Shown: positions 46,370 through 59,300 of the stretch, one piece after another
How the letters are laid out: the number at the start of each line of letters is the position of its first letter
Numbering within the stretch: position 1 is the stretch's first letter
Assembly: GCF_024385505.1 (NCBI RefSeq)
Contig: NZ_JANFLT010000002.1
Location: forward strand, 124,001-188,000
DNA from: Arthrobacter zhaoxinii
GTDB taxonomy: Bacteria; Actinomycetota; Actinomycetes; Actinomycetales; Micrococcaceae
Length of the DNA: 64,000 nt
Direction: 5' to 3'
Program-made: the position numbers and the translations under genes
Notes under the pieces: generated by a model
Seen by the model: the letters and a program-made list of their open reading frames with translations, nothing else
Told to the model about the DNA's origin: nothing
Database searches by the model: none

Positions 46370-47335
46370 TTACAGGTGCACGGAAAAACCAAGGCCGGCG
46401 AGTTCTCTTCCTAGGTCGAGTTTCCAATCTTCTTTGCCGATATAGACAAGGCCGCTGATGTCTCCAGGAAGCTCTACCCCAAAGTTGACAACTATAACGT
46501 TTTCACGTCTGAGCTTGCCGTAGAAGTACCCGAGTTCGAACACGACGTTCTGGCGAGCCCGCGCTTCAATCTCACTTGTGTGCTCACGCTTCGCCCTCGC
46601 TTCGTCGTCCGGGGTCATAAGGACGATCGCACAGGCTGCGTTTTTGGAGTACGACTCGAACTTCTCAATCAGTGTTTGACCCTTGTTGAGCTGTTTTCTC
46701 AGGATGGTGGGCTTTACCCCGATCAGGTCATGGACCCAATCGGATACCTCAAGCACTGCCATATCGTCATGGCCGTGTACCAAGAAAACTTCCGCTGGAG
46801 GAGTCTTGTCGGTCTCAACTCTGAGGATCTCTGCTTTCTCTTGGGACGTTATTTCAGTTTTCGCTGCCATATGAGCGTGGACAGCTGACACTGCTGGCGA
46901 AATCCGGCTCCGTTCCCCTTGCCGAGAGGCTATTGCGACACTTTCTTTTGGCTCATCCGCCAGTTCGAACTCATCGTTCAGAAGATACCCCGCTGACTGT
47001 ATGGTCTTGCGAAGCCGTTTGCCCGCGTCCATGTCCTCCAAGTTACCGCGTGAATAAGGTCCGTTTGAAAACTCCCGGAGAGCTTCGAGTAGCCCACGCA
47101 TCAGTTCGTACGCTTGGCTATCGTTCGCAGCAAGGAAAGCATCTACGATTTTCCGTTCTTTGCTGACGTCGGGCGTCGGCATGAGCCCGGCGGCAGCGAT
47201 CTTCCGGTCAATAACCGTGTGCTTTGGACCGTCACCTCCCGCCCAAAACTGTGCGAAAGCGTCAACGAGAGACGGACCCAGGTTCGTGCGAAGTTGCTCG
47301 GCGTTAGATGCGGAAAACATTTCATCATTATTCAT
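46370..47335 (-). CDS. TIR-like nucleotide-binding protein (CAP12/Pycsar effector type)
   Basis: A 321-residue protein. The C-terminal part (182-321) matches the TIR-like nucleotide-binding domain found in CBASS Cap12 and Pycsar effectors: VFLVHGHDD (183-191), NKGQTLIEKFESY, AIVLMTPDDE (236-245), and RQNVVFELGYFYGKL (261-275) with Glu267 in the place of the catalytic Glu. In characterised members this domain degrades NAD+ on a signal and kills infected cells. The N-terminal 170 residues are a helical domain I cannot name. No cyclase gene is next to it. It sits in an AT-richer stretch, which suggests transfer. Confidence 0.82.
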   Translation of the reverse strand: MNNDEMFSASNAEQLRTNLGPSLVDAFAQFWAGGDGPKHTVIDRKIAAAGLMPTPDVSKERKIVDAFLAANDSQAYELMRGLLEALREFSNGPYSRGNLEDMDAGKRLRKTIQSAGYLLNDEFELADEPKESVAIASRQGERSRISPAVSAVHAHMAAKTEITSQEKAEILRVETDKTPPAEVFLVHGHDDMAVLEVSDWVHDLIGVKPTILRKQLNKGQTLIEKFESYSKNAACAIVLMTPDDEARAKREHTSEIEARARQNVVFELGYFYGKLRRENVIVVNFGVELPGDISGLVYIGKEDWKLDLGRELAGLGFSVHL

Positions 47336-51313: not shown

Positions 51314-52393
51314 GTGAAACTCTTTACCCCGCTGACCGTCGGCACCATGGAACTGCCCAACCGCCTCGTCATGGCACCGATGTCCCGCGTGCGCGCCGAC
51401 CGCAACGGCGTGCCCACCGACATCATGGTCGAGCACTACCGCCAGCGCGCCTCAATGGGCTTGATCATCAGCGACGGCATCTACCCCTCCTTCACCGGCC
51501 AGGGCAACCCCCTGATGCCCGGCCTGGTCACCGAGGAGCATGTCGCCGGCTGGAAGCGCGTCACCGACGCCGTCCACGCCGCCGGCGGCAGGATCGTCGC
51601 CCAGTTGATGCACTCCGGCCGCGTCGCGCACGAAAACATCAACGGCGGCCGCCAGCCGGTGGCCCCCAGCGCCATCGCGCTCGAAGGCATGGCGCACACG
51701 TACGACGGCAAGCAGCCCTACCCGGTGCCGCACGCCCTGACCGAAGCCGAACTCCCCGGCGTCGTGCAGGACTTCGTCTCCGCCGCGCAGAATGCGATGA
51801 AGGCAGGGTTCGACGGCGTGGAGCTGCACGGTGCCAACGGCTACCTGCTGCAGGAATTCCTCTCCCCCGTCTCCAACACCCGCACCGACAACTACGGCGG
51901 ATCGCCCGAGAACCGGGCCCGCCTGGTCATCGAGGCCTTCCGTGCCGTGGCCGAGGCCATCGGCGCCGAGCACACCGGCATCCGCATCTCCCCGGAACAC
52001 AACATCCAGGGCGTGCTGGAAACCGACCGCGCCGACGTGACCGCCACGTACACCGCCCTCGTGGACGGCATCGCCGATCTGAAGCCGGCCTACCTGTCCA
52101 TCCTGCACGCCGATCCGGCCGACGAGATGGTCCAGGGCCTGCGCCACCGCTTCGGCGGCCCGGTGCTCATGAACACCGGCTTCGGCACGGTCACCACCCG
52201 CGAGGACGCCATCATGCTGCTCGAGGGGAACCTGGCCGACGCCGCCGTCGTCGGCCGCCCCGTCATCGCCAACCCGGACCTGGCCCGCCGCTGGCAGGAG
52301 GACCACCCGCTGAACGAGATCGACCAGGCCACCGTCTACACCGACGGCGCCGCCGGCTATACGGACTACCCGGAGCTGGCCCCGGTTTCCTAG
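51314..52393 (+). CDS. Old Yellow Enzyme family alkene reductase
   Basis: A 359-residue FMN-dependent NADPH:flavin oxidoreductase/ene-reductase of the NemA/OYE type. Marks: MELPNRLVMAPMSRVRAD, QLMHSGRVAH with the FMN contacts, GFDGVELHGANGYLLQEFLS, PVSNTRTDNYGGSPENR, and GPVLMNTGFGT/VGRPVIANPDL for the phosphate. Reduces activated C=C bonds or nitro groups. The substrate-binding pair appears shifted relative to the classic HxxN. ATG 51314 has AAAGGA upstream. A decayed fragment of a related gene lies at about 53980-54060. Confidence 0.92.
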   Translation: MKLFTPLTVGTMELPNRLVMAPMSRVRADRNGVPTDIMVEHYRQRASMGLIISDGIYPSFTGQGNPLMPGLVTEEHVAGWKRVTDAVHAAGGRIVAQLMHSGRVAHENINGGRQPVAPSAIALEGMAHTYDGKQPYPVPHALTEAELPGVVQDFVSAAQNAMKAGFDGVELHGANGYLLQEFLSPVSNTRTDNYGGSPENRARLVIEAFRAVAEAIGAEHTGIRISPEHNIQGVLETDRADVTATYTALVDGIADLKPAYLSILHADPADEMVQGLRHRFGGPVLMNTGFGTVTTREDAIMLLEGNLADAAVVGRPVIANPDLARRWQEDHPLNEIDQATVYTDGAAGYTDYPELAPVS

Positions 52394-52400
52394 CCGACTA

Positions 52401-52446
52401 ACGACGACGGCAGCCTTCCGCATAATGCGGGAGGCCTGCCGTCGTT
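52401..52446. terminator. Terminator after OYE gene
   Basis: Long stem ACGACGGCAG(G)CCT...CGCATAATGCG...AGGCCTGCCGTCGT followed by TT. It is eight bases beyond the stop and between convergent genes, so it may serve both. The 52447-52550 interval that follows holds nothing recognised. Confidence 0.75.
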
Positions 52447-52550
52447 TAGGGGCCTTCTGCTAACCGTTTTAGCCCTGCAGTCCGCGACTCCAGCCGACAG
52501 GGCTACGGAGATTTGTCGGAAAGGCCTGAACGGTGATCCTCCTGCGCGGG

Positions 52551-53750
52551 TTACGGCCCCGGGGGCGGCGGCTGCACCGGGGGCGGCGGGGACTGTCCGC
52601 CGTCGTACCCGGGCCCACCTTTGTGTCCCGTGCCCGGGCCGAGGTCATTCCGTGATGCCGTGCTTACCCGCCGCCAGGGGCGCCGGTCGTAGATCGCAAG
52701 GAGCTGCGCGCCGATCCCGAGGAAGACCATGCCCAGCCATACGGCGATGTTCAGCCACGGAATATGCAGCGCAACGATGAGGATCGCCCCGCCGACGAGC
52801 GCCTTGACCACCGGACGCTGGCGGCCGCGGAACACCAGCCTTCCGATGTAGTAGGAGCTGAACACGAATGCCGCGAGGGTGAGCGTGATCCAGACCAGCA
52901 GGATGGCCAGCGCGAGGGGTGCGCCGACGAAGGTGAACAGCAGAAGCACAATTGCAAACGGAACGACGATCGAGGCCACGAACCCTACGAGCAGAGCCTT
53001 CCAGGGAGTCGGTACAAGACGGTCGGTAACGTTGTGCAGCAAACGGGGGAAAAGTAATCCCGCGAGGAGGGTGATGAGGCTCAGCGCAACCAGCGCGTAA
53101 AGCAGGCCAAGCAACCAGCCGACGAACCGTTCTCCCTGCGTTGGCTCGTCGGAGTCTGGCGGGGCGATGCGCTCCACGGTGCCGCTGACCGCCCCGTCGG
53201 CGATGCTGGCGTCGTCGTTGGAGCTGTAGGTGAGGTCACCCCCGACCGTCCCGTCAATGGTGAGGTCGCCAACACCAACCTGCACATCACGGCCGACCGC
53301 GCCGGCTATCTCGACATCGCCCGCGGCACCCACCAAGTCGTCTCCGAAGGAACCGCTGTCGGTAAGATTCACCGTCGAAGCGAAGATGGTGCCGCTGCGC
53401 GAGATCTCCCCGCTGATGGTCACATCCTGCCCGGCGAGACGCACATTGCCGTCAACGATTCCGGTGATGTCGATCGTCTGGCCGGCGGCGATGACGTCGC
53501 CGGTCACGTTGCCGGAGATGGTGATCTGCTGGGCCGACACGTACACGTCCCCGGAGACATCGTCCCGCACATCCACGTTTATGCCGTTGTAGAACTGCGG
53601 ACCCGTATTGTCGTTCTGGTCATTCGGCGCAGCCGGCAGCGACTGCGGGACCGGGGAGAAGGCGAATGCGCCTGATCCGGTTCCCAAAATCAGAATGATG
53701 GCGGCGAGGATTGCGGAGAAAGCCCGCCCTGGCGAAGGAGAAAGTCTCAT
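52551..53750 (-). CDS. Bactofilin-like (polymer-forming) membrane protein
   Basis: A 399-residue exported protein. A signal peptide (FSAILAAIILILGTGSGAFA) is followed by a regular right-handed beta-helix-like repeat (residues 50-180: VDVRDDVSGDVYVSAQQITI, SGNVTGDVIAAGQ, GIVDGNVRLAGQDVTISGE, and more) like bactofilin domains. Then come four to five transmembrane helices (200-330) and a Pro-rich cytoplasmic tail. ATG 53750 is chosen because the signal peptide follows it. Likely an envelope scaffold; bactofilins polymerise in the cytoplasm, so an extracytoplasmic version differs. Confidence 0.78.
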   Translation of the reverse strand: MRLSPSPGRAFSAILAAIILILGTGSGAFAFSPVPQSLPAAPNDQNDNTGPQFYNGINVDVRDDVSGDVYVSAQQITISGNVTGDVIAAGQTIDITGIVDGNVRLAGQDVTISGEISRSGTIFASTVNLTDSGSFGDDLVGAAGDVEIAGAVGRDVQVGVGDLTIDGTVGGDLTYSSNDDASIADGAVSGTVERIAPPDSDEPTQGERFVGWLLGLLYALVALSLITLLAGLLFPRLLHNVTDRLVPTPWKALLVGFVASIVVPFAIVLLLFTFVGAPLALAILLVWITLTLAAFVFSSYYIGRLVFRGRQRPVVKALVGGAILIVALHIPWLNIAVWLGMVFLGIGAQLLAIYDRRPWRRVSTASRNDLGPGTGHKGGPGYDGGQSPPPPVQPPPPGP

Positions 53751-53979
53751 TGGGTCGCCTTTCAGGTACCTGCATATGGACGCATCCATGACGCTCTTGA
53801 TCCTGGCTGTGCGGCAAGCATCTTGGCAGAGGTGCCATGCGCCCATGGTCACGCCGTCGGAGGGTGCTGTAAAGGTGCGCGTGCTAATCCGGGAACCTGC
53901 CGACTGCAGGACGCGGGATGTCCGGGGAGGGCAGGCGCCGTCGTCGCGAAGACCTTCACACCCTCTGGGCGAGCTGAGA

Positions 53980-55133: not shown

Positions 55134-55160
55134 CCGCCCGGATGAGCGGCAGATCGGGCA

Positions 55161-55204
55161 AAGGAATAGCCAGAAGCAACCCTGCCCGCTTCTGGCTATT
55201 CCTT
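55161..55204. terminator. Bidirectional hairpin terminator, copy A
   Basis: Perfect 17-base arms AAGGAATAGCCAGAAGC / GCTTCTGGCTATTCCTT with a ten-base loop, between the convergent aldo/keto reductase and TM2-Ltp genes. A nearly identical hairpin is at 57197-57239. Confidence 0.8.
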
Positions 55205-55233
55205 GAACGTGCCGGAGACTCCGGCGGAGGAGA

Positions 55234-55968
55234 CTACTTCAGGTTCTGAATGGCGTAGTCGGCTTCCTCGGGGGTGAACTGCTCACCAAACTCGGAGGTC
55301 AGCTGGTCCCGGATCGCGTCGGGGGACATCGCCATATCGTTCTGGTACGTCTCCGCCTTCTTAAGCGCGTTGGCATTGAAGTCCGTATCGAGGTTGTCCA
55401 CTGCGTACTGGGCTGCCTCCGGGCTGAACTTCCCGGCGACGTCGGAGGTCAGCTGGGCGTAGATGCCGGCCTTGCTCATGTACATCATGTCGGCGTAGGT
55501 CTCGGCCTGCGTCAGCGCCGACTGGTATTCCTTGGGAACGGAGGGGTCAGCTTCGGGTGCTGCCGCCTCGGCTACCGTGCCGTTGCTTCCCTGAGATACG
55601 GCCGGGCTGTTCTCAACGGCCGAGCCCACTGCCAGTGCTCCGGTGAGGAGCAGGATGAGCGAAACGACGACGTTGAGAACCCAGATGATGGCCGTGACAA
55701 TCCAGGCCATCTTCTTGCTCTCCTGGTATCCGGCGAGCGGCTGGCCCTTCTTGTCCTTCTGGTTGCCGGTCAGGGTGATGATCAGGTCCACCAGCGACCA
55801 GATGCCCAAGCCGCCACCTGTCAGGAGCTTCAGGACGCCGGTGCCGATCTTGCCCAGGTAGAAGCGGTCGATGCCCAGTCCGCCCAGGAACAGCGCCAGC
55901 AGCCAGGTCACAACGAAGGACTTCTTGGTGGCGGTAGTAGTCATATAGCTTGTCTCGGTAGTGCTCAT
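55234..55968 (-). CDS. TM2 domain protein with two Ltp repeats, copy A
   Basis: A 244-residue membrane protein. Residues 14-110 are a TM2 domain plus a third helix ([20 protein letters not shown], then [20 protein letters not shown]). After a low-complexity linker come two copies of the Ltp module (about 150-193 and 200-244), pattern AL..AETY....M.MS...I..QLTSE.GE.FTPEEA.YAI.NL. Ltp modules are known from a Streptococcus prophage lipoprotein that blocks DNA entry of other phages. A paralogue is at 57264-58031. No lipobox; anchored by the TM2 helices. Confidence 0.85.
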   Translation of the reverse strand: MSTTETSYMTTTATKKSFVVTWLLALFLGGLGIDRFYLGKIGTGVLKLLTGGGLGIWSLVDLIITLTGNQKDKKGQPLAGYQESKKMAWIVTAIIWVLNVVVSLILLLTGALAVGSAVENSPAVSQGSNGTVAEAAAPEADPSVPKEYQSALTQAETYADMMYMSKAGIYAQLTSDVAGKFSPEAAQYAVDNLDTDFNANALKKAETYQNDMAMSPDAIRDQLTSEFGEQFTPEEADYAIQNLK

Positions 55969-56570
55969 AGCGGGGTATGCCTTTTCTGTAATGAGGTCGT
56001 GCTTTAGGCGCGCAGCGCCATGTTTTACGGGTTCGGCTTCTGCTCATGGAAACATTTCGGCCGTGCGGTTTCGCGAGGGGAAATCATGTCACCCACGCAT
56101 ATCCTCCGGCGGAACCCGCCAGCTTTCCGCATCGAATCACTGACGATGCCTGCTGAGACGGCGACGAAGACGCGTAACCTTGATGAGCTGTGCAGCTTCG
56201 AAAAGAGGCAGCGTCTCCCGTGAGTAATTGGCTGCCGGGAGTTTCATGCTGCGGTCAGCACTAAACCAAATGAATAACTAAATTTACACCTAAAAGCTGC
56301 CGCGTTATCCAAACGGCAATCCCCATGCCTGCGGTACTTCGTTTGAATGCTGTCCTTCATCAGGATCGGGTACGGAGACAGCGGCACACCGGCGCCGCTA
56401 AAAACATGGAATGATCCATCAAATGACATCCAGCTGGAATCCCGGACCCGAACCTGTCGCTCAAAAGTTTGAGGCTGCCTGGCGCGTATCCCCCGGTTTT
56501 CGGCTGATTACAGCCACCGCCACCTCGATGCCGGTTGCGCCTGCCGGCCGCGCCCTGATCTGGTAGACGG
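55969..56570. other. Gene-poor interval between paralogous region and MOSC gene
   Basis: About 600 bases, AT-richer around 56260-56360. The only frame with a plausible ribosome binding site (GAGGGG, five bases before ATG) is 56086-56223, a 45-residue basic peptide with no known domain; I give it little weight. No promoter or hairpin can be named with confidence. Confidence 0.3.
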
Positions 56571-57161
56571 ATGGAACCCATGTCCGCAGGAGAATCGCCC
56601 GAAAGCAGCGCCTCAACGATGGAATCGAAAGTTGTCTCCGTCAGTCAAAGCAGCAAGCACACCTTCAGTAAGGACCGGGTTGAATCGGTTCTGCTGGTAG
56701 AAGGGCTCGGCGTCGAGGGAGACGTGCATTCCGGCACCACCGTGCAGCATGTGTTCAGAAAGCGGTTCCATCCGACGGAGCCCAACCTGCGGCAGGTGCA
56801 TCTGATCCAGGCGGAGCTGTTCGAGGAACTCGAGCAGGACGGCTTCGAGGTGGGTCCCGGCGACCTCGGGGAAAACATCACCACCCGCGGCATCGACCTC
56901 CTGAACCTGCCCGAGGGAGCACTCCTGCGGATCGGGCCCGACGCCGTCGTTCAGGTAACCGGCCTGCGGAATCCCTGCCGGCAGATCGACCGCTTCCAAA
57001 CCGGGCTGCTCAAAGCGGTGCTACCCCTCGACAGCAACGGAAAAGTCGTGCGCAAAACGGGAGTCATGGGCATCGTACTGACAGGCGGGTTGGTGAACAT
57101 CGACGATGAAATACGTGTTGAGCTTCCGGCCGAGCCGCACCGTCACCTTAAGTGTGTCTGA
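56571..57161 (+). CDS. MOSC domain protein
   Basis: A 196-residue MOSC (Mo cofactor sulfurase C-terminal) protein. Marks: GLGVEGDVHSGTTVQHVF, HLIQAELFEEL, VGPGDLGENITTRGIDLLNL, and the conserved Cys in VTGLRNPCRQID. MOSC proteins bind Moco and move sulfur or reduce N-hydroxylated compounds (YiiM-type). The C-terminal GVMGIVLTGG is typical of the small YiiM-like group. Start could be ATG 56571, 56580 or 56619. It sits between the two TM2-Ltp genes, opposite in strand. Confidence 0.85.
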   Translation: MEPMSAGESPESSASTMESKVVSVSQSSKHTFSKDRVESVLLVEGLGVEGDVHSGTTVQHVFRKRFHPTEPNLRQVHLIQAELFEELEQDGFEVGPGDLGENITTRGIDLLNLPEGALLRIGPDAVVQVTGLRNPCRQIDRFQTGLLKAVLPLDSNGKVVRKTGVMGIVLTGGLVNIDDEIRVELPAEPHRHLKCV

Positions 57162-57196
57162 GTCCTGCCGAAGGGACGGACCATGTCCTCCGGGCA

Positions 57197-57239
57197 AAGG
57201 AATAGCCAGAAGCAACGCGTGCGCTTCTGGCTATTCCTT
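57197..57239. terminator. Bidirectional hairpin terminator, copy B
   Basis: Same 17-base arms as 55161-55204 (AAGGAATAGCCAGAAGC / GCTTCTGGCTATTCCTT) with a nine-base loop, between the MOSC gene and the second TM2-Ltp gene. Its flanks (GGGCAAAGG... and ...CTTGAA.GTGCCGGA) are also the same as in copy A. Confidence 0.8.
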
Positions 57240-57263
57240 GAAGGTGCCGGAGGCTAAGGCGAC

Positions 57264-58031
57264 TTACTTCAGGTTCTGAATGGCGTAGTCGGCTTCCTCG
57301 GGGGTGAACTTTGCGCCGTACGTATCGGTGCTGGCGAGGTAATCCCGCAGCTCATCCAGGGGCTGCGGGGTCTCCTCCTGCAAAACCTTCGCGGATTCCA
57401 GCGCGTTGACCTTGTAATCGGCCTTGAGGTTGTCGATGGCGTACTGCGCGGCCTCCGGAGTGTACTGGCCGTACTCCCCACCGAGCTGCTCGTAGATGGC
57501 GGCCTTGCTCATGTGCAGGGAGTCGCTGTAGAACGTGGCACTGTTCAGCGCCTGCAGATTGTCATCATTCTTGGGAACGGCGGGAGCGGCGGGTGCTGCC
57601 TGAGTGGGTGCGGAGTAGGTCGGTGCCGGGCTGGACAGCGTATTGCTGTTCGTCCCCGGTACCTGCCGGCTTTCCTCGATGACCGCTCCGATTGTCGCCG
57701 TCAAAGTAAAGATCGTGACCACCGAAATAATGGCGTTGAGAACCCAGACGACGGCGGTGACAATCCACGCCATCTTCTTGTTCTCCTTGTACTCGGCGAG
57801 AGGCTGACCGTATTTGTCCTTCTGGTTGCCGGTCAGGGTGATGATCAGGTCCACCAGCGTCCAGATACCGAAACCGCCGAACGTCAGGAGCTTCACGACA
57901 CCGGTGCCGATCTTGCCCAGGTAGAAGCGGTCCACGCCAAAGGTGCCAAGGAAGAGCGCGAGCAGCCACGTCACGACGAAGGACTTCTTGGTGGCGGTAG
58001 CGGGAATATAGCTTTTTTCGGTGGTGCTCAT
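57264..58031 (-). CDS. TM2 domain protein with two Ltp repeats, copy B
   Basis: A 255-residue paralogue of the protein at 55234-55968: same TM2 and third helix, a Pro/Ala/Ser linker of different sequence, and two Ltp modules (about 155-200 and 207-255). The last 15 residues and the bases beyond the stop are almost the same as in copy A, while the linkers and the middle of each Ltp module differ. I start at ATG 58031 (STTEKSY), which aligns with copy A; a longer frame to 58082 has no counterpart. Confidence 0.85.
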
Positions 58032-58301
58032 AACGGGGTTATGCCTTTTCTGTGGTGAGGGTCGTGCTTCCCTGGGCGACAACTTCCAGCGGACAGCCCA
58101 TTACTTGTAGTAGATAATGCCATCTATTCGATGCCCAGCAGCGCAAAAAAGGTCGCCCCGACGGAATCAAATGAGTAACGAAGGTGCTTTCCCCTCAAGG
58201 GCCGCTGCTTCACCCCGAGCTGGATTATTTCGGTGTGGTTTTTGGTCAGCAGCGGTGTGAAGGTGGATGCCGACGTCGTTCAACCGGTACCGCCTACGCC
58301 G

Positions 58302-59300
58302 TCATTTCTTACCCGGCTTTGACGGCTTCGGCGAGCGCTCCTCACCGGAATACTGCGCTTCAATGTCCTTGCTCCAGGCCCGCGCGTATAGGCCGAGGAC
58401 GGCCTGTTCCCTGAACGGGAAGCCCAGCCGGTTGAGCGCTAACTGGCTTGCCCCCGTAGCCAGCTGCTGCGCGCTGCGACTGATGCGTTGCTTGTCTGCC
58501 CGGTACAAATAGTCATCGATGGCCCTTGCCCACCGCTTCCGCCAGATATCCACTGCCGGCTCTGAGGCCAGGGCGGCCATCACTCGATGTGCGGGTACAA
58601 CCCGGGGTGCCATCCGGGCCATCATTGCCCTGCGCGCTTGCTCAGACTGCGGGCCGTAAGATCCCGTGCAGGCGTGCAGATGGGCGTTCCAGTAGTAGTC
58701 CCAGCTTGTAGTCCTGCGGTCGGGCCAAACGGCGGACCGGGGTCCCCGCATCATGGCGTGGCCGGTGTCGAAGAGAAGCAGTGCGGCCAGCATCGAGCGC
58801 ATGTTGAGGCTGGGAAAGCGGTTGACTGCCCACACGGCCAGGTCCGAGGACACCTCGCAATTCTCGGCTATCAGCTCCAGGCCCTTTGGTCCACCGAACC
58901 GTGCAAGTGCGGCTTCCACCACCTCAGGTACCGGTTCGCCCGGAGGTGGCGGATAAGCGATGCCCGGAGAGTGGGAGATCTTTACGGTACCCAGCGTGGC
59001 AACGTTTTCGTCCGCCAGCGCGTGCGCAAACTTCCATAGGCGCTTAACGGCATCGTCGGGAGCACGCAAATGCAGGAGCACGGCCTGATGGTCGGATTCC
59101 AGGCTGCGTGAAAACCGAAACCGTCCCCCCTCCCCGGTCCGTAGTTGGGAAGTCAGAGGGGCCACAATATGGCGGACTATTTCGTCGCCGACATTCTTAC
59201 GCTCCGGCTCAATGGTCAGGATGGACCACAGGGTGGTGGTGCTGGGGTGCTGCTGCGCAGGAAGGGTAGCTGCTCCTCGATGAACTGTATTCGATTGCAT
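58302..59300 (-). CDS. Thiopeptide/lantibiotic-type biosynthesis C-terminal domain protein (SpaB_C-like)
   Basis: A 332-residue stand-alone protein of the family fused to LanB dehydratases or found alone as thiopeptide cyclase-like enzymes. Recognisable parts: LWSILTIEPERKNVGDEIVR, GRFRFSRSLESDHQAVLLHL, VPEVVEAALARFGGPKGLEL, CEVSSDLAVWAV and a C-terminal LNRLGFPFREQAVLGLYARA. In known systems it eliminates glutamate from, or cyclises, a dehydrated peptide. No LanB, cyclase, transporter or precursor gene lies nearby, so it may be an orphan or a reassigned protein. No clear ribosome binding site. Confidence 0.7.
   Translation of the reverse strand: MQSNTVHRGAATLPAQQHPSTTTLWSILTIEPERKNVGDEIVRHIVAPLTSQLRTGEGGRFRFSRSLESDHQAVLLHLRAPDDAVKRLWKFAHALADENVATLGTVKISHSPGIAYPPPPGEPVPEVVEAALARFGGPKGLELIAENCEVSSDLAVWAVNRFPSLNMRSMLAALLLFDTGHAMMRGPRSAVWPDRRTTSWDYYWNAHLHACTGSYGPQSEQARRAMMARMAPRVVPAHRVMAALASEPAVDIWRKRWARAIDDYLYRADKQRISRSAQQLATGASQLALNRLGFPFREQAVLGLYARAWSKDIEAQYSGEERSPKPSKPGKK

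Follow-up and report, generated by a model that had tools for sequence, protein, structure and literature searches.

Ltp of the Streptococcus thermophilus phage TP-J34 is a prophage lipoprotein that keeps other phages from injecting their DNA; it combines a flexible spacer with two acidic three-helix repeats (PF07553; structure 4EQQ). In the parts of the literature drawn on here, acidic Ltp residues are proposed to contact the basic end of the phage tape-measure protein (PMC3952083), phage escape mutants bear deletions in the tape-measure gene (PMC10320759), and the Ltp proteins of TP-J34 and TP-778, whose eight differing positions lie mainly in the first repeat, are inhibitory to different lactococcal phages (PMC3952083). 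Within the Actinobacteria, gp41 of a Cutibacterium acnes phage is likewise proposed to be Ltp-like, membrane-directed and equipped with an acidic patch; its C-terminal part is predicted to be mainly beta and has a BLAST E of ~1 to Ltp (PMC11480721). Here we describe two Ltp genes in a 64,000-nt stretch of the Arthrobacter zhaoxinii genome (contig NZ_JANFLT010000002.1, positions 124,001 to 188,000; hereafter the window). Both genes probably encode surface-displayed blockers of phage DNA injection of the predicted Ltp type, which are anchored by a TM2 domain and belong to the host rather than to a prophage. They share the two acidic three-helix repeats and the flexible spacer with TP-J34 Ltp, but they lack cysteine and carry TM2 plus a third membrane helix as anchor; unlike TP-J34 Ltp, such TM2-Ltp genes are chromosomal or plasmid-borne and their cores have been exchanged. 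The Arthrobacter repeats match PF07553 over its cut-off, and gp41 has a different fold by the description cited above; gp41 is a more distant analogy.

Copy A (LtpA; 55234..55968, minus strand) encodes 244 aa, with TM2 at residues 15-63, the third membrane helix at ~81-118, a disordered linker and the two Ltp repeats at ~147-244. Copy B (LtpB; 57264..58031, minus strand) has the same domain order and a longer Ala/Pro linker; its 255 aa are counted from an ATG, while the mechanical list of open reading frames begins at a TTG further upstream. Both lie on the chromosome, copy A convergent with an aldo-keto reductase (AKR) gene and copy B convergent with a MOSC-domain gene (PF03473; 56571..57161), each on the plus strand; the MOSC gene thus stands between the two copies. 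Profile search found one TM2 domain (PF05154) in each copy (E 2.6e-20 in A and 1.6e-20 in B; bit scores 72.8 and 73.5, both above the curated cut-off of 27.9) and two PF07553 repeats in each (E 3.3e-44 and 8.9e-28). These four repeats are all the PF07553 matches at E <=0.001 in the genome. The first-pass annotation, which had described two paralogues of TM2 joined to two Ltp modules, with a MOSC gene flanked by them, was therefore right about the architecture. The proteins are identical at 142 of 257 positions (55%), and the divergence is uneven rather than uniform, as the identity is 72% in the anchor, 31% in the linker, 42% in the Ltp core and 88% in the last 17 residues. The diverged linkers and cores noticed in the first pass are real in this sense.

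The predicted repeat fold is that of TP-J34 Ltp. The copy A core matches the sequence of 4EQQ with E 3.1e-24, and structural alignment (VIA-align) of AlphaFold2 models, built from nine-row alignments, gave Z 17.8 and 2.1 Å over 102 residues for copy A and Z 16.6 and 1.4 Å over 98 residues for copy B. 4EQQ ranks first for both models, followed by RecX (Z 8.8 for A and 10.7 for B), and over the fold alignments copies A and B are 51% and 40% identical to TP-J34 Ltp. Mean pLDDT over the whole models is 66.4 and 68.9, respectively; by 10-residue blocks it is 81-97 from residue 141 in A and 87-97 from residue 161 in B, and it falls below 50 over most of the linker in both. The best PHROG family for both copies is phrog_4980, superinfection exclusion, and this match starts at residue 76, after TM2, and extends over third helix, linker and repeats. 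Domains, PHROG family and the sequence and fold matches to 4EQQ thus agree with the earlier suggestion of a chromosomal Ltp-type superinfection-exclusion architecture.

The anchor sets these proteins apart. Cysteine is absent from copies A and B and from all 16 TM2-Ltp proteins found in the genus, so neither copy can be a lipoprotein and the anchor consists of membrane helices; where TP-J34 Ltp has its lipobox cysteine, the N-terminus here is TM2. Public relatives are nevertheless annotated as 'Ltp family lipoprotein'. Each protein has three hydrophobic segments, the third of them preceded by a lysine-rich loop, and its C-terminal part is acidic; the net charge of the cores is -11 in A and -10 in B, and all 16 genus proteins lie between -6 and -13. 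The positive-inside rule is commonly used to read membrane topology, and under it the lysine-rich loop favours an outside C-terminus. Hydropathy and charge thus favour a placement of the Ltp repeats outside the cytoplasmic membrane, the membrane part of the models being of low confidence.

The relatives show that the two copies are not a recent pair. Among 29 genomes of the genus, PF07553 occurs in 17 and the TM2-Ltp fusion in 13, so that presence is incomplete; conservation in all relatives as a housekeeping gene was one of the patterns that the first-pass annotation had named as speaking against its reading. The 16 fusion genes comprise two in the genome studied here (G000), three in G015 and one in each of the other eleven carriers; one of the G015 genes lies on a plasmid of 401 kb and the G023 gene on a plasmid of 375 kb. 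Grouped by synteny and alignment into A-like and B-like genes, copies A and B are, on these comparisons, members of two older lineages that are found singly or together. A recent tandem duplication is rejected, because A and B are each closer to genes of other species than to each other.

Three kinds of core can be told apart. Copy B has a type 2 core, in a clade with those of G042, G014, G041, G012, G018 and one gene of G015 (G015_2; support 100/99), and a second clade of equal support (100/99) unites the type 3 cores of G015_1, G011, G039 and G019. What we call type 1, the TP-J34-like remainder, includes copy A, G004, the plasmid genes of G015 and G023, and G002. Core and anchor do not tell the same history. 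Copy A and G015_1 are 91% identical in the anchor and 42% in the core, while copy B and G014 are 75% identical in the anchor and 88% in the core. The DNA tree of the anchors groups copy A, G004, G015_1, G011 and G039 (93/95), leaving the copy B anchor unplaced; on the cores this five-gene clade costs 58 log-likelihood units and is rejected (p-AU 9.4e-6), and the core tree places the type 3 cores with G019. In a PHI-type incompatibility test, custom-written for this analysis, none of 2000 permutations was as low as the data in each of three gene sets.

The flanks of the genes provide the strongest sign that gene bodies, or at least cores, have been replaced. For 13 of the 16 genes we compared the 162 nt that lie upstream of a 38-nt leader, which was itself excluded, and evaluated the scores against 300 shuffles. 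The upstream flank of copy B matches those of G042 (173) and G004 (48, where the highest of 300 shuffles reached 25); the ten remaining genes in the comparison gave no match. With the A-type gene of G004, which sits at the MOSC locus of another species, copy B shares both flanks (48 upstream and 141 downstream, 0/300 shuffles each), and its flanks match neither G014 nor G015_2 despite 88-89% core identity. Upstream of copy A, matches were found to G015_1 (51), G011 (49) and G039 (36), a weaker one to G014 (29), and scores at the edge of chance to G015_2 and G018 (24 each); G015_1 itself matches the upstream flank of the type 2 gene G018 (55). The downstream flanks of A and B match each other and those of G042, G004, G015_1, G011 and G039 (86 to 256), more weakly those of G002 (41 and 50) and G019 (26), and not those of G014, G015_2, G012 or G018. 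Thus, one promoter-terminator pair surrounds a type 1 core in G004 and a type 2 core in G000 and G042, another surrounds type 1 in copy A and type 3 in G015_1, G011 and G039, and in G014 and G015_2 (also, by eye, in G041) the type 2 core sits between unrelated flanks. The same flanks with different core types indicate that the gene body, or at least the core, was replaced inside resident flanks.

Synonymous (pS) and nonsynonymous (pN) differences were also compared. Between copy B and G014, pS drops from 0.34 in the anchor to 0.11 in the core plus 3' end (Fisher p 0.001); four neighbouring genes have 0.28-0.46 and gyrB has 0.22. For G015_2 the values are 0.33 and 0.10, with 0.24-0.48 in the neighbours and 0.23 in gyrB. 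Between these species the type 2 core is therefore apparently younger than its surroundings, unless its synonymous sites are constrained. The first-pass annotation had proposed diversifying pressure on the two copies, and one alternative is accordingly a tandem duplication followed by diversification through point mutation under selection, with the 3' ends homogenised by gene conversion. The uneven divergence between A and B and their mutual longest identical 3' tract (46 nt, see below) would fit this account, as would the second Ltp repeat of copy B, a small sub-window in which pN exceeds pS against G014 and G015_2 with very few synonymous changes and where local positive selection is conceivable. 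Between core types, pN is about five-fold higher in the core than in the anchor while pS changes little (copy A and G015_1: pN 0.058 in the anchor and 0.30 in the core, p 5e-13), and on its own this jump would fit diversifying selection as well. However, over the whole core pN is below pS in 8/8 pairs of the same type (for example 0.056/0.14, 0.123/0.21 and 0.064/0.11), A and B both find nearer relatives in other species than in one another, and the histories of core and anchor conflict. We consider the duplication account improbable. Given the tree conflict and the flanks, exchange is preferred over diversifying selection, and on the comparisons made here core exchange, more than diversification by point mutation, is what accounts for the pattern.

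A terminator-like hairpin with a perfect 17-bp stem lies at 55161..55204, between the convergent AKR and LtpA genes, and one with the same stem lies at 57197..57239, between the convergent MOSC and LtpB genes; both 17-nt arms are identical and the loops differ. With up to three mismatches allowed, the stem arm has four matches in the window, all of them exact, where 0.04 are expected by chance. Both hairpins fold far better than shuffled sequences on the Ltp strand (z -5.7 and -6.9; 0/200 shuffles as good) and on the opposite strand (z -6.0 and -4.8; 0/200 and 1/200). The exact stem pair occurs at five sites in 4/29 genus genomes, every one beside a TM2-Ltp gene, and a genome-wide repeat is thereby rejected. 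Among 14 MOSC loci examined, the hairpin follows MOSC in the four that have an adjoining TM2-Ltp gene and in no other, so it is associated with the Ltp gene rather than with MOSC. The stem is retained, with changes, behind A-type genes in several species; behind B-type genes of other species it was not found, and their terminators are unrelated.

Inside the genes, with the stop codon's second base as the starting point for counting back, the last 46 nt are the same in copy A (55235..55280) and copy B (57265..57310), both on the minus strand. The near-identical 3' ends and the shared hairpins reported in the first pass are thus confirmed, apart from the loops. Part of this likeness is family-wide, because 10/16 genus genes, across species, share an identical 32-nt tract at the stop codon. 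Special to A and B are the 46-nt tract and, for copy B, a terminator that other species' B genes do not have; with every other gene compared, copy B shares an identical 3' tract of 37 nt or less, and with its orthologue in G042 one of 32 nt. Against that orthologue, pS is 0.36 in the last 17 codons and 0.05-0.10 elsewhere, which indicates that the 3' end was altered after the split of G000 and G042, in either strain. Gene conversion of the 3' ends, as first suggested, is in keeping with the mutual 46-nt tract and the terminator of copy B; as the sole process it explains less than replacement of the gene body does, since the upstream flank of copy B also matches the A-type gene of G004. At the 5' end, the leaders of copy A (55969..56006, minus strand) and copy B (58032..58069, minus strand) are of the same kind (repeat D6). 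That of copy A contains AGAAAAGGCA, a likely ribosome-binding stretch, which is kept upstream of 10/16 genus genes.

The fusion was not seen in phages. Among 70 phage records, none covers at least 80% of the copy A fusion, and in the best 30 of them every match to copy A begins at residue 110 or later; in viral contigs, copy A had two matching loci and copy B had 37, none of which extends to TM2. The host or plasmid form therefore seems to be a distinct variant. Some of the core's best matches in phages are proteins annotated as superinfection exclusion; identity to copy A reaches 60-80% in the best places in 11/70 records, and it is below 60% in all records compared with type 2 (49/49) and type 3 (106/106) cores. 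One might regard the genes as functionless, decaying remnants of prophage morons, the core family being phage-borne in Gram-positive bacteria. Against this, all 16 genus genes are open over the aligned stretch without an internal stop, whole cores of the same type have a pN lower than pS, the hairpin stem is retained, with changes, behind A-type genes of several species, and none of the 70 phage records covers as much as 80% of the fusion. We regard such a decay as very improbable.

Carriers are unevenly spread. In the gyrB tree the fusion needs four gains or losses (0/500 shuffles as low), and 10/13 carriers fall in one clade. Four further genus genomes have Ltp with no TM2-Ltp fusion seen, and additional Ltp frames were found in G003 (384 aa), G039 (322 aa) and, weakly, G004 (226 aa). 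Inspection by eye beyond the genus recognised the fusion in six more genomes of the order (L093 and L097-L101) and in Brevibacterium linens (L065); a match was recorded in 149/297 genomes of the order, but one half of the protein sufficed for it, so this number does not count fusions. TM2-less Ltp proteins with three repeats, by eye, occur in other families of the order (L111, L114, L117 and L120), and a 2488-bp plasmid of Kocuria palustris (L222, NZ_LC201957.1) has three annotated genes, for replication, a hypothetical protein and Ltp. The sampling is mostly one genome per species, and exchange within a species is read from one pair, G000 and G042 (gyrB pS 0.023). In G042 copy B is present and copy A is absent, and the variable slot between AKR and MOSC (55142..56568), which holds copy A in G000, is occupied by a LysM-domain gene. 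Its protein has close relatives (57-74% identity) in G003, G009 and G007 and only a weak best match (31%) in G000.

Around the two copies, the MOSC gene was a candidate for a functional partner. It directly adjoins the TM2-Ltp gene in 4/13 carriers and lies within 20 kb in 10/13, and close orthologues (at least 68% identity) are present in 14/29 genus genomes, namely 11/13 carriers and 3/16 non-carriers. In several genomes the region holds other shared neighbours too. MOSC and TM2-Ltp look like parts of a common, rearranged region rather than a partnership, which is unsupported, as the adjacency is limited to four carriers and the hairpin follows the Ltp gene. Beside copy B, a gene at 58302-59300 (minus strand) has a weak match, just below the cut-off, to a lantibiotic-dehydratase C-terminal domain (PF14028); it is duplicated in G042 and G015 (L068 9232-11744; L070 10242-12726), and in G042 a MOSC fragment lies between the two duplicates. 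Elsewhere in the window, OYE-like and bactofilin-like genes (51314-53852; L069 9355-13174) have a pS to G004 of 0.13 and 0.08, compared with 0.37 for gyrB, which suggests that this block was recently transferred between the species of G000 and G004.

A prophage setting, or that of a defence island, near which the first-pass annotation had proposed to look for TM2-Ltp genes, is unsupported by PADLOC and PHROG scans of the window and of the relatives' neighbourhoods. In the window, with genes called by a GC-position script, 49/58 called proteins were scanned. They matched 24 PHROG families, none labelled structural, terminase, portal or integrase (17/24 are unlabelled), and the prophage lysogeny module that characterises the setting of TP-J34 Ltp was not seen there. 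PADLOC-DB 2.0.0 has no family at E <=0.01 for either copy; its matches in the window are mad3, mad8 and AriA from one ATPase-like protein, PDC-S35 and TIR from one TIR protein, and one mad2. The TIR protein (46370-47335, minus strand; 321 aa) has a TIR domain of the CAP12/Pycsar-effector kind (PF10137, E 2.7e-33) and matches PDC-S35 (E 1.1e-54); its gene is a lone candidate for anti-phage action. In the relatives' neighbourhoods, where 109/122 called genes were scanned (11 TM2-Ltp genes and two small frames being set aside), the PADLOC profiles matched were GlgB, mad2, mad3 and AriA only, and the best 25 of 30 PHROG families include no structural label.

Another explanation is that the genes encode envelope proteins with a housekeeping or stress role, whose Ltp repeats would bind a component of the host wall or membrane instead of a phage protein. 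TM2 proteins of the order resemble copies A and B in that the two-helix domain is followed by a third helix and then by an outer domain. In eight others, the part beyond TM2 is DUF4352 or DUF4352-like in four (one over the cut-off), GmrSD_C plus Excalibur in one, and without a Pfam match in three (L017, L104 and L108). The combinations of TM2 and a third helix with a GmrSD_C nuclease/Excalibur or DUF4352(-like) part are at L019 (619-2010, minus strand), L118, L094, L106 and L107. This diversity of outer parts, the predominance of metabolic neighbours, the clustering of carriers in one clade and the proximity of MOSC in most carriers all agree with an envelope role. Such a role sits less easily with the finding of no fusion in 16/29 genus genomes, carriage on plasmids, a LysM-domain gene in the copy A slot of a same-species genome, a core history distinct from that of the anchor, and phage matches of the core that include annotated superinfection-exclusion proteins. 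We therefore hold an envelope role to be rather unlikely.

Several observations weigh against a role of the two genes in blocking phages. Metabolic genes predominate around them, the scan of 49/58 window proteins revealed neither a prophage nor a multi-gene defence system, and the nearest PADLOC candidate is the lone TIR protein, ~8 kb from copy A. A defence gene that moved freely would be more scattered than this one-clade clustering, and the TM2 anchor is uninformative about phages, since unrelated outer domains share it. A close phage source of the cores was not found among the phage records compared. As for topology, the TM2 and third-helix region of the models is of low confidence, and the first 12 residues of copy A contain no K or R, so that the positive-inside argument depends on the middle loop. 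On the side of recombination, type 1 is not a supported clade in the core tree, and the converse test, with the type 3 clade imposed on the anchors, is not significant (p 0.10). Finally, among the titles and opening abstracts listed in literature searches we found no paper that describes the TM2-Ltp architecture, and no experiment on a TM2-Ltp protein was found.

We still favour Ltp-type blockers of DNA injection and propose the following model. The three membrane helices, TM2 plus one, would anchor the protein with its C-terminus outside, and the disordered linker would extend the two acidic repeats into the wall space. There the repeats may attach to the tape-measure protein of an incoming phage, at its basic end, and stall DNA entry, and the Ltp core would set the phage spectrum, as is held for known Ltp. 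Cores would be swapped between lineages and loci by recombination in or around the conserved ends, that is, the leader and TM2 on the 5' side and the last codons and terminator on the 3' side. It is possible, if doubtful, that the genes represent a wider host-owned innate anti-phage family in Actinobacteria, with a fixed promoter, TM2 and terminator site and interchangeable Ltp cores, in which recombination among chromosomes, plasmids and strains shifts the repertoire of the population.

Ltp exclusion has so far been worked out in dairy streptococcal prophages. If our reading is true, a host-owned, membrane-helix-anchored Ltp in Actinobacteria would extend exclusion to chromosomal defence, records of an 'Ltp family lipoprotein' would misname the type of anchor, and the natural core swaps could be used to find the residues that set phage specificity.

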